Shown: piece after piece, positions 546 to 5,506 of the stretch
Layout of the letters: each line of letters starts with the position of its first letter
Position numbering within the stretch: position 1 is the first letter of the stretch
Assembly: GCA_008501735.1 (NCBI GenBank)
Contig: QQUF01000042.1
Coordinates: 1-5,506, forward strand
Direction of reading: 5' to 3'
DNA: 5,506 nucleotides
Origin: Calditrichota bacterium
GTDB taxonomy: Bacteria > CLD3
Notes under the pieces: model-generated
What the model saw: only the letters and a program-made list of their open reading frames with translations
Told to the model about the DNA's origin: nothing
The model's database searches: none
Position numbers and translations under genes: made by a program

Positions 546-2741
546 TTATTTTAAAAGTAGCATCTTTTTCGTGATGCTATTTTTATTACTTACAAGTTTG
601 TAAAAATAGATTCCTGAACTAACAGGTTTCCCAAACTTGTCAACGCCGTTCCAAACAATTTCACCTGAATTGGAACTTAGTTTCCACGATTTCACCTCCT
701 CTCCGAGAATGTTAAAAATTAAAAGTTTTGCTTTTTCGTAATTTGTAATTTGTAATTCGTAATTAATTGTCGTTGAAGGATTAAAAGGATTCGGATAATT
801 TTGGCTTAAATGAAAGTCTTTAATTTCGTTAGAGTTTTCTTCCGAACTTGTAACAATCTCAGCAGTTACAAGAACAGGTTGAATAGACTTAACTTGCTGA
901 TTAGTGTGAAACTGAATGTTTTGTGAGTAAGAACCTGCCATTTGTGGAAAGAAAAACAGATTGAGTGAAACGGAAGAGTCAGGTTGAATAGTAAAAGGAA
1001 GAGAATTCAGTGAAGCAATGTTTGTTGGAAAGTCAATTTGAGAAATAGTTAGAGGAAGGTTTCCAATATTTTTAATCACAATATTTGTGTCAACTGAAAC
1101 TGTGTTGGAAGAGTCAATAATTCCCAACTCCAAATTATTTGATTTAAAGAAAGGCATTTTGTAAAAACCTCTACGGAACCTTAAATTAAGTTCTCCAAGT
1201 CCGGGAGAAACTTCTTTTGCATCAGTGTAAGCAGTGTAAACGAGAGAATCGTCAATAGCAACTCCGTAGTTTATCAGAATACCATTTAAATCTGGTTCGT
1301 ATTTTGAAACTTGAATATGTTGAGAGAAAGTTTCTCCGTTATCTCTTGAGAATCTTGTAATTAGTCTTCTTCCTGGCCAAAATTGGTCGTCATACCAAAC
1401 AGGAAAGACATTATTTCCGTGTGAAGCGAGTTGTTGTTTAATTTCAGCTGTACAACTTGAATCCATCATACACAGAGTAACATTTGGAGTAAAGGAAGTT
1501 CCGTAATTTTCACTTTTAATGTAAGCGATATAAGTAAACCCTTGAGTAAGATGAAAAGTATTAGTGTGAAAAAATACTTCTGGCCAATCCGTGTTATTAC
1601 CAGTTGGATTAATATCATATTCACCAGTCCAAGAGTTTCCCAAGTCAAAAGACCTGTAAGCGGCAGTCTCACCAAGAGCAGTTGAATTTCCTGTTCTTGC
1701 ATAAACAATAGAGTTTCCACCAATCGCAACACTCGGTCTCTGAATCGTACTAAACAAAGGACCTGCTATCGAATCGTAAGGAGAAAAACTCATTCCTTCA
1801 TCATAAGAAATTGATTGATAAACATTTCCACCTGCTCCCGTTTCCTGATAATCATAAAGTGTGTCTCCACGAGCTATGAAACCAGATTGAACTGCATAAG
1901 TTATGGGAACTTTAGGATTCCAAGTCAAACCTCTGTCATCACTAACATAAATTCTTATCTCAGGAGGATTGCTTTGTGATGTGGTAATCGTGTAAGCGTG
2001 AACGTAACTTCCCGAAGTAAAAACTTCATAGATTCCTCCCATTGTGTCAGAAATTACAAGCTCAGGAGCAAAGGTAGTTCCGTAGTCATCACTTCTGAAA
2101 TAACTGAGTCTTTTATCTTCACCCAAAGTAAACAAGTGAACAGTTCCCGAATCGTCAACTGCAACTTTACCGTGCATTCCTGCAAAACCTGTAACATTGA
2201 AAGTTTTAAAAACTTGAGTTGTGTCCCAAAGAATTGTGTCCCAAACAGTTGGTTCATAAGGTGGAAGGTCATTTATTTTATTTGAATATTTTGAAGGTAG
2301 AGTAGGGAAAGGAGTTTCAAAATCAGATGAAACTTCAAAGTAATCTATTTTTTCTTGTGAAAGTTCACTCAAAGAAGAAAGCCCAAAAGACATTCCGTTG
2401 TTTGGTGAGTAAAAGATACCTTCACTTGTTTTTACAAAAATATTATTATTTCTACTAATTAGAATTTCTTCAACAGGAAAGTCGAAGTTAGTGTTTTGAG
2501 ATAAATTTAAAGCTGTCCATTCAACAAGAGGGCTGAAACTCTTCACACTTCTGTAAAGTGTTGCACTTCCGTTTACGGATTTTTTCAGTCCCAAAATTAT
2601 GAATACTTCACTGCTTTTTGTTTTGTATTCAATGATTGGATTTTCTTTGTCTTTCTTAGCTTCTTCTAATTCAAAATAATTTCTTGGTAAACCGAAAACA
2701 TTCCCAATTAAAATCACGAGTAAAAGTAAAATTACTTTCAT
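546..2741 (-). CDS. Copy 2: T9SS-exported Asp-box (BNR/sialidase-like) propeller protein with ASH-like and type A sorting domains
   Basis: Complete, 731 aa. A signal peptide covers residues 1-17 or so. Seven Asp-box-like motifs start at 112 (SPNNGMSF), 217 (SDDYGTTF), 267 (SDDRGLTW), 312 (SYDEGMSF), 364 (SFDLGNSW), 410 (SENYGTSF) and 465 (SRDNGETF). From the second onward they are about 45-55 residues apart, as expected for blades of a sialidase-type beta-propeller. Residues about 534-630 resemble an ASH/choice-of-anchor-D domain (VIKNIGNLPLTI, then FTIQPDSS, FFPQMAGSYSQ, FHTN). Residues 643-731 are a T9SS type A sorting domain: NYPNPFNPST, NILGEEV, GKPVSSGIYFYKL and terminal TKKMLLLK. The product should cross the inner membrane by Sec and the outer membrane by T9SS, then be anchored or released. 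The only two cysteines, C424 and C430, could form a disulfide. I see no clear sialidase active site (Arg triad, Tyr/Glu pair), so binding or an unknown enzymatic role is equally possible. Confidence 0.93.
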   Translation of the reverse strand: MKVILLLLVILIGNVFGLPRNYFELEEAKKDKENPIIEYKTKSSEVFIILGLKKSVNGSATLYRSVKSFSPLVEWTALNLSQNTNFDFPVEEILISRNNNIFVKTSEGIFYSPNNGMSFGLSSLSELSQEKIDYFEVSSDFETPFPTLPSKYSNKINDLPPYEPTVWDTILWDTTQVFKTFNVTGFAGMHGKVAVDDSGTVHLFTLGEDKRLSYFRSDDYGTTFAPELVISDTMGGIYEVFTSGSYVHAYTITTSQSNPPEIRIYVSDDRGLTWNPKVPITYAVQSGFIARGDTLYDYQETGAGGNVYQSISYDEGMSFSPYDSIAGPLFSTIQRPSVAIGGNSIVYARTGNSTALGETAAYRSFDLGNSWTGEYDINPTGNNTDWPEVFFHTNTFHLTQGFTYIAYIKSENYGTSFTPNVTLCMMDSSCTAEIKQQLASHGNNVFPVWYDDQFWPGRRLITRFSRDNGETFSQHIQVSKYEPDLNGILINYGVAIDDSLVYTAYTDAKEVSPGLGELNLRFRRGFYKMPFFKSNNLELGIIDSSNTVSVDTNIVIKNIGNLPLTISQIDFPTNIASLNSLPFTIQPDSSVSLNLFFFPQMAGSYSQNIQFHTNQQVKSIQPVLVTAEIVTSSEENSNEIKDFHLSQNYPNPFNPSTTINYELQITNYEKAKLLIFNILGEEVKSWKLSSNSGEIVWNGVDKFGKPVSSGIYFYKLVSNKNSITKKMLLLK
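738..765 (-). repeat. Heptanucleotide tandem repeat (4 units) inside the sorting domain of copy 2
   Basis: On the plus strand four 7-bp units run head to tail: gtaattt, gtaattt, gtaattc, gtaatta. On the coding strand this is an AATTACn-type repeat and gives the peptide INYELQITNYE. Because 3 x 7 = 21 bp, gain or loss of three units keeps the frame and adds or removes seven residues. Copies 3 and 4 lack the repeat and have INYKLAFNNKGK here, two residues shorter. It lies between the NYPNPFNPST motif and the NILGEEV strand. Confidence 0.8.
1690..1961. repeat. 272-bp tract identical to 4032-4303 (copy 2 member)
   Basis: By line-by-line comparison every base matches 4032-4303 at an offset of 2342. 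The bases just outside differ (1689 t versus a; 1962 a versus g). It encodes residues 261-351, including the third and fourth Asp-boxes. Synonymous positions are also unchanged, unlike the flanking coding sequence, which suggests recent gene conversion or unequal crossing-over. Confidence 0.85.
2144..2255. repeat. 112-bp tract identical to 4486-4597 (copy 2 member)
   Basis: This is a second stretch with no base differences between copies 2 and 3, bounded by mismatches at 2143 and 2256. It encodes about residues 163-199, the WDT-rich segment and the strand before the second Asp-box. The region between it and the 272-bp tract (1962-2143) carries a cluster of substitutions. Confidence 0.75.
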
Positions 2742-2829: not shown

Positions 2830-2867
2830 TAGCAAATTTTAGCACTATAAACTATTCTCTAACAATT

Positions 2868-2894
2868 GAGAACCTCACTGAAAGTGAGAATCTC
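2868..2894 (-). other. Stem-loop just downstream of copy 3
   Basis: This is the same imperfect stem as at 514-540, with arms 2868-2879 and 2883-2894, starting 5 nt after the stop codon of copy 3. The single base difference from the other hairpin falls in the 3-nt loop (gaa versus gga on the plus strand), so the stem itself is unchanged. No U-run follows in the direction of transcription. Confidence 0.45.
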
Positions 2895-2899
2895 AAAAA

Positions 2900-5083
2900 T
2901 TATTTTAAAAGTAGCATTTTTTTCGTAATGCTGTTTTTGTTACTTACAAGTTTGTAAAAATAGATTCCTGAACTAACAGGCTTACCAAACTTGTCAACAC
3001 CGTTCCAAACAATTTCACCTGAATTGGAATTTAGTTTCCACGAATTCACCTCCTCTCCGAGAATGTTAAAAATTGTAAGTTTACCTTTATTGTTAAATGC
3101 TAATTTATAATTGATAACTGTTGAAGGGTTAAAAGGATTCGGGTAATTTTGGCTCAAATGAAAGTCTTTAATCTCATTTGAGTTTTCTTCCAAATTTGTA
3201 ACAATTTCAGCATTTACAATAACAGGTTGAATTGATTTAACTTGTTGGTTAGTGTGAAACTGAATGCTTTGGGAATAAGAGCCTGAACTTGGAATAAAGA
3301 AAGAGAAGTTAAAAGTAGTAGAAGAATTAGGAAGAATAGTAATTGGAAGAGCCGTTAGTGAAGCGATGTTGTTTGGAAAGTCAACTTGAGAAATGGTTAG
3401 TGGAAGATTACCAATATTTTTGATTACAATACTTGTATCAATTGAAGTAGTAGTAGAAGAATCAATAACTCCAAGGTTCAACTCATTAGATTTAAAGAAT
3501 GGCATTTTGTAAAAACCTCTACGGAATCTTAGATTGAGTTCAAAGTTTCCGGGAGTTGGTTGTTTTGAATCAGTGTAAGCGGTGTAAACAAGAGAATCGT
3601 CAATTGCAACTCCATAATTTACTAAAACACCATTGATTCCAGGACCTTGTTGGGAAACTTCAATGTGTTGAGAAAAAGTTTCTCCATTGTCCCTTGAGAA
3701 TCTTGTAGCCAAATCTTTTCCAAAAAGAACATCATTAAAAACAGGAAAAACATTACTTCCGTGTGTAGCTAATTGTTGTTTGATTTCTGCTGTGCAAAAG
3801 GAGTCAATCTTACACAGAGTAATATTTGGTATAAAAGTAGCTCCGTAGTTTTCACTTTTGCTATAAGCAACATAAGTGAAACCTTGAGAAAGATGAAAAG
3901 TATTTGTGTGAAAAAAGATTTCGGGCCAATCTGAATTATTTCCTGTCGGATTCACATCGTATTCATCAGTCCAAGAATTTCCTAAGTCAAAAGACCTGTA
4001 AGCGGCAGTTTCTCCAAGAACTGTTGAGTTACCTGTTCTTGCATAAACAATAGAGTTTCCACCAATCGCAACACTCGGTCTCTGAATCGTACTAAACAAA
4101 GGACCTGCTATCGAATCGTAAGGAGAAAAACTCATTCCTTCATCATAAGAAATTGATTGATAAACATTTCCACCTGCTCCCGTTTCCTGATAATCATAAA
4201 GTGTGTCTCCACGAGCTATGAAACCAGATTGAACTGCATAAGTTATGGGAACTTTAGGATTCCAAGTCAAACCTCTGTCATCACTAACATAAATTCTTAT
4301 CTCGGGAGGAGAACTTTGTGATGTTGTAATCGTGTAAGCATAAACATAATTTTCAGAAGTCGAAACTTCATAAATTGCTCCCATTGTGTCAGAAATTACA
4401 AGTTCAGGAGCAAAAGTAGTCCCAAAATCATCACTTCGGTAGTAGCTTAATCTTTTGTCTTCACCCAAAGTAAACAAGTGGACATTTCCCGAATCGTCAA
4501 CTGCAACTTTACCGTGCATTCCTGCAAAACCTGTAACATTGAAAGTTTTAAAAACTTGAGTTGTGTCCCAAAGAATTGTGTCCCAAACAGTTGGTTCGTA
4601 AGGTGGAAGGTCATTAATTTTATTTGAATACTTTGAGGGAAGAGTAGGAAAAGGAGTTTCAAAATCAGATGAAACTTCAAAGTAATCTATTTTTTCTTGT
4701 GAAAGTTCACTCAAAGAAGAAAGTCCAAAAGACATTCCGTTGTTTGGTGAGTAAAAGATACCTTCACTTGTTTTTACAAAAATATTATTATTTCTACTAA
4801 TTAGAATTTCTTCAACAGGAAAGTCGAAGTTAGTGTTTTGAGATAAATTTAAAGCTGTCCATTCAACTTGAGGACTAAAACTTTTCACACTTCTGTAAAG
4901 TGTTGAACTTCCGTTAACGGATTCTTTCAATCCGAGAATTATAAATACCTCACTACTTTTAGTTTTGTATTCAACGATTGGATTTTCTTTGTCTTTCTTA
5001 GCTTCTTCTAATTCAAAATAATTTTTTGGTAACCCGAAAACATTCCCAACTAAAATCACGAGTAAAAGTAAAATTACTTTCAT
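2900..5083 (-). CDS. Copy 3: T9SS-exported Asp-box (BNR/sialidase-like) propeller protein with ASH-like and type A sorting domains
   Basis: Complete, 727 aa, with the architecture of copy 2. A signal peptide spans 1-17 or so. Asp-box-like motifs start at 112, 217 (SDDFGTTF), 267, 312, 364, 410 (SENYGATF) and 463. The ASH-like domain covers about 532-628 and the T9SS type A sorting domain 641-727. It is about 87% identical to copy 2 by hand count. The four-residue difference comes from two 2-residue deletions: one after residue 448 (FNDVLFGKDLA replaces WYDDQFWPGRRLI) and one in the sorting domain (LAFNNKGK replaces the heptamer-repeat peptide). Most substitutions lie after residue 355; residues 261-354 have none. 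Both cysteines are kept (LCKIDSFC). The upstream spacer is the diverged one, so expression could differ from copies 1 and 2. The ligand or enzymatic role is unknown. Confidence 0.93.
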   Translation of the reverse strand: MKVILLLLVILVGNVFGLPKNYFELEEAKKDKENPIVEYKTKSSEVFIILGLKESVNGSSTLYRSVKSFSPQVEWTALNLSQNTNFDFPVEEILISRNNNIFVKTSEGIFYSPNNGMSFGLSSLSELSQEKIDYFEVSSDFETPFPTLPSKYSNKINDLPPYEPTVWDTILWDTTQVFKTFNVTGFAGMHGKVAVDDSGNVHLFTLGEDKRLSYYRSDDFGTTFAPELVISDTMGAIYEVSTSENYVYAYTITTSQSSPPEIRIYVSDDRGLTWNPKVPITYAVQSGFIARGDTLYDYQETGAGGNVYQSISYDEGMSFSPYDSIAGPLFSTIQRPSVAIGGNSIVYARTGNSTVLGETAAYRSFDLGNSWTDEYDVNPTGNNSDWPEIFFHTNTFHLSQGFTYVAYSKSENYGATFIPNITLCKIDSFCTAEIKQQLATHGSNVFPVFNDVLFGKDLATRFSRDNGETFSQHIEVSQQGPGINGVLVNYGVAIDDSLVYTAYTDSKQPTPGNFELNLRFRRGFYKMPFFKSNELNLGVIDSSTTTSIDTSIVIKNIGNLPLTISQVDFPNNIASLTALPITILPNSSTTFNFSFFIPSSGSYSQSIQFHTNQQVKSIQPVIVNAEIVTNLEENSNEIKDFHLSQNYPNPFNPSTVINYKLAFNNKGKLTIFNILGEEVNSWKLNSNSGEIVWNGVDKFGKPVSSGIYFYKLVSNKNSITKKMLLLK
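4032..4303. repeat. 272-bp tract identical to 1690-1961 (copy 3 member)
   Basis: This is the copy 3 partner of the base-for-base identical tract. It begins just inside the codon for residue 351 and ends at the first base of codon 261, inside the propeller. Divergence resumes immediately on both sides. Confidence 0.85.
4486..4597. repeat. 112-bp tract identical to 2144-2255 (copy 3 member)
   Basis: This is the copy 3 partner of the second identical tract, at the same 2342-bp offset. The next base (4598, g versus a) is the first mismatch. Confidence 0.75.
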
Positions 5084-5146
5084 ACTTCTCTGCCTTTTTT
5101 AAAATTGTGGCTTTTTTTAAAAATTTAACTTTTTCTAAAAACTCAT

Positions 5147-5179
5147 AAAAAATAAACTAACAAATTTGAATTTTATCAA
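5147..5179 (-). promoter_or_regulatory. Candidate promoter of copy 3 (diverged version)
   Basis: TTG (5179-5177), a 22-nt gap and TATTTTTT (5154-5147) repeat the geometry seen before copies 1 and 2, although much of the gap differs. Read as sigma70-like it is TTGATA-N17-TTTATT. The block TTAGTTTATTTTT is kept. The last base of the -7-like box is T rather than G, which departs from TAnnTTTG and could alter strength. The region between this box and the start codon also differs from the other spacers. Confidence 0.4.
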
Positions 5180-5201
5180 CGCCTAAATTTGTAAACTCAA
5201 G

Positions 5202-5229
5202 AACCTTAGTAAAATATTCCTCAAAGGTT
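5202..5229 (-). other. Weak inverted repeat downstream of copy 4
   Basis: Short 6-bp arms (aacctt at 5202-5207 and aaggtt at 5224-5229) enclose a 16-nt loop, 5 nt after the stop codon of copy 4. It occupies the place of the stronger stem-loops behind copies 2 and 3 but is unrelated in sequence. No U-run follows it. It could be chance. Confidence 0.2.
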
Positions 5230-5234
5230 ATATT

Positions 5235-5506
5235 TTATTTTAAAAGCAGCATTTTCTTAGTAATGCTGTTTTTATCACTTACAAGTTTGTAAAAATAGAT
5301 TCCTGAACTAACAGGTTTCCCAAACTTGTCAATGCCATTCCAAACAACTTCACCTGAATTGGAACTTAGTTTCCACGAATTCACCTCCTCTCCGAGAATG
5401 TTAAAAATTGTAAGTTTACCTTTATTGTTAAATGCTAATTTATAATTGATAACTGTTGAAGGATTAAAAGGGTTAGGATAATTTTGACTTAAATGAAAGT
5501 CTTTAA
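5235..5506 (-). CDS. Copy 4 (partial): C-terminal T9SS type A sorting domain
   Basis: The stop codon is at 5237-5235 and the frame is open to the window end, giving 89 whole codons; the 5' part lies outside the window. The peptide starts KDFHLSQNYPNPFNPST and ends SITKKMLLLK, a complete type A sorting domain that directs export through T9SS. It carries the LAFNNKGKLTIF version found in copy 3 rather than the repeat-derived version of copy 2. It has a few private changes, such as VVWNGID for IVWNGVD and VSDKN for VSNKN. By analogy with its neighbours the missing part should be a signal peptide, propeller and ASH-like domain, but that cannot be seen here. It is the most upstream gene in the array shown, 151 bp from the start of copy 3. 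Confidence 0.9.
   Translation of the reverse strand, partial: KDFHLSQNYPNPFNPSTVINYKLAFNNKGKLTIFNILGEEVNSWKLSSNSGEVVWNGIDKFGKPVSSGIYFYKLVSDKNSITKKMLLLK

Follow-up and report, generated by a model that had tools for sequence, protein, structure and literature searches.

How did two neighbouring genes that differ at about 12% of their nucleotides come to share 272 nt without a single difference? The genes lie in a window of 5506 nt (the whole stretch of DNA analysed here, which is one entire contig, C37), and an initial annotation had proposed recent gene conversion or, as a second option, unequal crossing-over. Here we report that the tract is very probably the footprint of recent gene conversion between neighbouring tandem paralogues of secreted BNR-repeat proteins.

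The gene array and its encoded proteins

The minus strand carries all genes of the window, two of them complete and two represented by one end each, which in sense order are copies A, B, C and D. Copy A is present as its 3' end only (5235-5506; sense order 5506-5235) and copy D as its 5' end only (1-387; sense order 387-1). The complete copy C (546-2741, minus strand, 731 aa) has a signal peptide-like start, BNR repeats, a HYDIN/ASH Ig-like domain and a type IX secretion sorting domain, an architecture shared by the complete copy B (2900-5083, minus strand, 727 aa), to which it is adjacent as a direct repeat. The spacer between C and D (388-545, no strand) equals that between B and C (2742-2899) at 153 of 158 nt, with 5 differing; the A-B spacer (5084-5234) is clearly diverged.

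In both copies the BNR/Asp-box repeats were detected with PF02012 (33 and 34.2 bits, cut-off 27), the C-terminal type IX sorting domain with TIGR04183 (38.6 and 42.1 bits, cut-off 23) and also PF18962, and the HYDIN/ASH-like Ig domain above its curated cut-off. The genome encodes a PorU sortase (NF033707, 696.6 bits, cut-off 420), the one secretion component examined, and with sorting domain and sortase both present, copies B and C are predicted to be type A cargo of type IX secretion. AlphaFold2 models of these two sequences had a mean pLDDT of 28.8, unusable for the putative propeller fold, and a PDB sequence search with the copy proteins gave no match.

The window appears to be the inner part of a larger array. 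Its first 127 nt (1-127, the last 127 sense nt of copy D) and its last 127 nt (5380-5506, the first 127 of copy A) occur exactly in a paralogue on contig C24 (C24:268532-270721), and no exact match between the window ends and this gene was longer than 127 nt. When the ends of all 59 contigs were compared, ten exact overlaps of 127 nt appeared, the other exact lengths being one of 108 nt, one of 29 nt and those of contig C2 (2973 nt), both ends of which appear to be N only. An end overlap of 127 nt is thus usual in this assembly and is the signature of a k=127 de Bruijn graph. This is the largest value that SPAdes allows (PMC5481147), and SPAdes was probably the program used. Contigs C18 (59,088 nt) and C27 (39,448 nt) each overlap their own start by exactly 127 nt at their end and could therefore represent circular replicons or elements resembling phages.

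Judged from these overlaps, the window resembles a loop excised from the C24 gene, and the locus would consist of at least four head-to-tail genes at C24 with the window as its internal loop. One walk fits the orientation: the C24 left flank (with a gene that we take from its sequence to be obgE-like), gene 1, B, C and gene 4. Gene 1 is then the C24 5' part, a shared segment and A, and gene 4 is D, the shared segment and the C24 3' part; both composites give uninterrupted reading frames of 729 aa. The shared segment (1785 nt, codons 87-681, C24:268792-270576, L031 8793-10577) occurs once in the assembly, and we infer that the two outer genes were collapsed there, in which case isolated differences between them could have been lost. 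The array may also run through the loop more than once, or the loop may belong to a separate circle.

The identical tract and its surroundings

The tract lies at 1690-1961 on the minus strand in copy C (gene nt 781-1052, codons 261-351), where it spans Asp-box/BNR repeats of the putative propeller, and at 4032-4303 on the minus strand in copy B. It contains two Asp-box motifs, one of them the BNR match at residues 265-275 and the other spotted by eye. As the initial annotation had described, the identity is perfect within diverged flanks. No longer run without differences occurs between copies B and C. Nucleotide identity between B and C was 92.8% before the tract, 100% inside and 81.5% after it, and the adjoining 100 nt were 84% identical on one side and 82% on the other. 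At the protein level the copies were 85.8% identical outside the tract, with 94.2% for the part that precedes it and 80.1% for the part beyond residue 355, close to the earlier estimates of about 87% for the pair and 79% after that residue. Further identical runs of 143 nt (2383-2525, copy C position, minus strand; common also to the C24 gene), 112 nt (2144-2255, copy C position, minus strand) and 74 nt all lie nearer the 5' end.

The claim that synonymous sites, too, are unchanged across these codons was borne out by NG86 estimates, in which dS was 0 over 61.7 synonymous sites (codons 262-352 of the B/C alignment; rough 95% upper bound 0.05). Beside the tract it was 0.452 before (codons 181-261) and 0.908 after (codons 353-400), so that the zero is limited to the tract with sharp borders. 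Equally low dS throughout the pair, which had been named as contrary to conversion, was thus not observed. The expected number of identical runs of at least 272 nt was about 1e-24 when the rate of the diverged flanks was used (79.9% identity) and about 1e-16 at the whole-pair rate outside the tract (85.6%). A GENECONV-style permutation test, as the initial annotation had suggested, was significant whether it used all sites or silent codons only: B equals C at 87 consecutive variable sites, a run reached in 0 of 5000 permutations, and 23 consecutive agreements at silent codons were reached in 0 of 5000 over the whole gene and in 1 of 5000 when only codons 181-540 were permuted.

Within the tract the C24 gene, completed with the end of copy A, differs from B and from C at about 31% of nucleotides, with a dS of about 1.0, much as in neighbouring parts, and the region is therefore free to vary. 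The initial annotation had argued that purifying selection on the protein alone would not freeze synonymous sites. No sign of positive selection was seen on average, as NG86 dN was below dS in every block with synonymous change, which argues for ordinary purifying selection on average.

Along the genes the agreeing pair among B, C and the C24 gene changes repeatedly. B goes with the C24 gene at codons 31-120, with C at codons 121-540 and again with the C24 gene at codons 541-630 and 661-690. A single tree cannot give such switching, which shows repeated conversion. Taken with the spacer pattern, it means that sequence was exchanged several times, and the 272-nt tract is one of the recent events. 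In the central part the C24 type and the B/C type differ by about a third, and the ends are nearly alike. A diversity-generating array lacking silent cassettes, in which constant conversion keeps the conserved gene ends alike and two strongly differing types of propeller core (I, II, II, I along the array) either stay separate or are swapped, seems rather improbable to us. An antigenic-variation cassette system, with one expressed gene and truncated silent donors, finds no support here, as B, C and the two reconstructed outer copies are all complete frames with start codons.

Origin of the tract

Unequal crossing-over between tandem copies would produce a hybrid gene, of which the 272 nt might be the remnant. 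The head-to-tail arrangement allows for it, and the near-identity of the B-C and C-D spacers makes it probable that whole units were exchanged as well; past changes in copy number probably arose in this way. A crossover alone, however, would leave long identity running on from its breakpoint, and here both borders are sharp; a second event would be needed on one side, and we regard this origin of the tract as unlikely. Constraint on the nucleotide sequence itself (an overlapping gene, RNA structure or codon usage) might also preserve a tract, and a few other open frames do overlap copies B and C in the window, at chance level. It cannot account for the identity of B and C, because the third array member diverges in the same place, and it was rejected as having next to no probability.

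An artefact in which diverged copies were collapsed, so that one consensus now stands in both, deserves consideration because a k=127 graph assembly collapsed repeats at this very locus, and the concern about misassembly was sound in that the array is incompletely assembled. Bubble removal in assembly graphs can wipe out isolated differences. A bubble removed at k=127 should, however, need about 127 identical nt on either side, which would leave some 18 nt at the centre of the tract as the one place where differences could be concealed. Moreover, the tract is internal to a single contig, and misjoining sequences at an exact repeat would not itself produce that repeat. We consider such an artefact very unlikely, though the assembler could have phase-swapped the flanks of the tract between B and C at shared 127-mers.

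Gene conversion, the first option of the initial annotation, is favoured by a dS of zero confined to the tract, by its sharp borders and by the permutation results. A break or gap in one copy would have been repaired with the neighbour as template, presumably through RecA-type recombination, and heteroduplex would have been fixed across about 272 nt, probably with no net crossover. The transfer would have been non-reciprocal, from one copy to the other, with either B or C as donor. The genome encodes RecA (recA) and MutS1 (mutS1). In the Salmonella tuf genes, where bacterial conversion has been measured, processivity is about 0.998 per nt and mismatch repair is expected to shorten conversion tracts (PMC5485169); a tract of 272 nt fits these measurements (PMC5485169). 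With one genome of the genus in the comparison, there was no orthologue by which to date the event, and the sole long homologue in the one genome from the same taxonomic family is 48% identical and too distant to polarise the change.

The family in this genome and in known systems

Because the same-family relative has this single long homologue, the family has probably expanded in the present lineage; among named relatives there was only a 31% match to the C-terminal part, in a Bacteroidetes MAG. We examined 13 further full or partial members in the same genome. Tandem members on contig C9 have 252 identical nt in common, and on C5 the identity between two tandem genes extends over at least 937 nt before it meets a run of N. 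The C5 pair is found in L040 (C5:6000-15000) at about 2840-3770 and 5188-6130, and one copy runs into nearly 800 N, which probably mark a scaffold gap where a further array was collapsed. A third array (C58, C9 and C49; L034, L032/L168 and L167) is broken at contig ends, with C49 starting with the 127-mer of a C9 gene; these three contigs presumably form one array. On C49 the family gene end comes first, followed by hydrogenase-like genes, named by sequence only. The sorting domain region of B and C has protein-level matches at well over 100 places in the genome, many of them with about 70-86% DNA identity, so cargo genes that are unrelated elsewhere may likewise trade sequence at their 3' ends.

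As in copies B and C, a short contiguous tract is copied between paralogues on the same chromosome in Salmonella tufA and tufB, where conversion is limited by divergence and mismatch repair (PMC5485169). Unlike the adjacent, direct and about 12% diverged copies B and C, the tuf genes are distant, inverted and nearly identical (PMC5485169). Exported paralogues that become mosaic through repeated conversion are also known from the M. tuberculosis PE/PPE genes (PMC13061034) and from a review of bacterial antigens (PMC4534519), and such families are likewise poorly resolved by short reads (PMC13061034, PMC4534519). The present array differs from them in showing no evidence of silent donor cassettes, expression switching or a host, and its average dN/dS is low. 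Type IX-secreted surface proteins with exchanged segments occur in Porphyromonas gingivalis (PMC5266723); there the exchange is mostly between strains and accompanied by domain rearrangement (PMC5266723), whereas here it involves neighbouring copies in one genome.

Gene conversion is an established process, and it acts here on a familiar type of gene; what is new is that the collapsed array has been reconstructed and that there is evidence of recurrent conversion in the family. Such arrays break short-read assemblies, and for these families neither the number of genes nor their trees can be relied on where copies have been collapsed or are mosaic. The locus offers a clean, testable case of conversion still under way in a lineage-specific family of proteins secreted by the type IX system.
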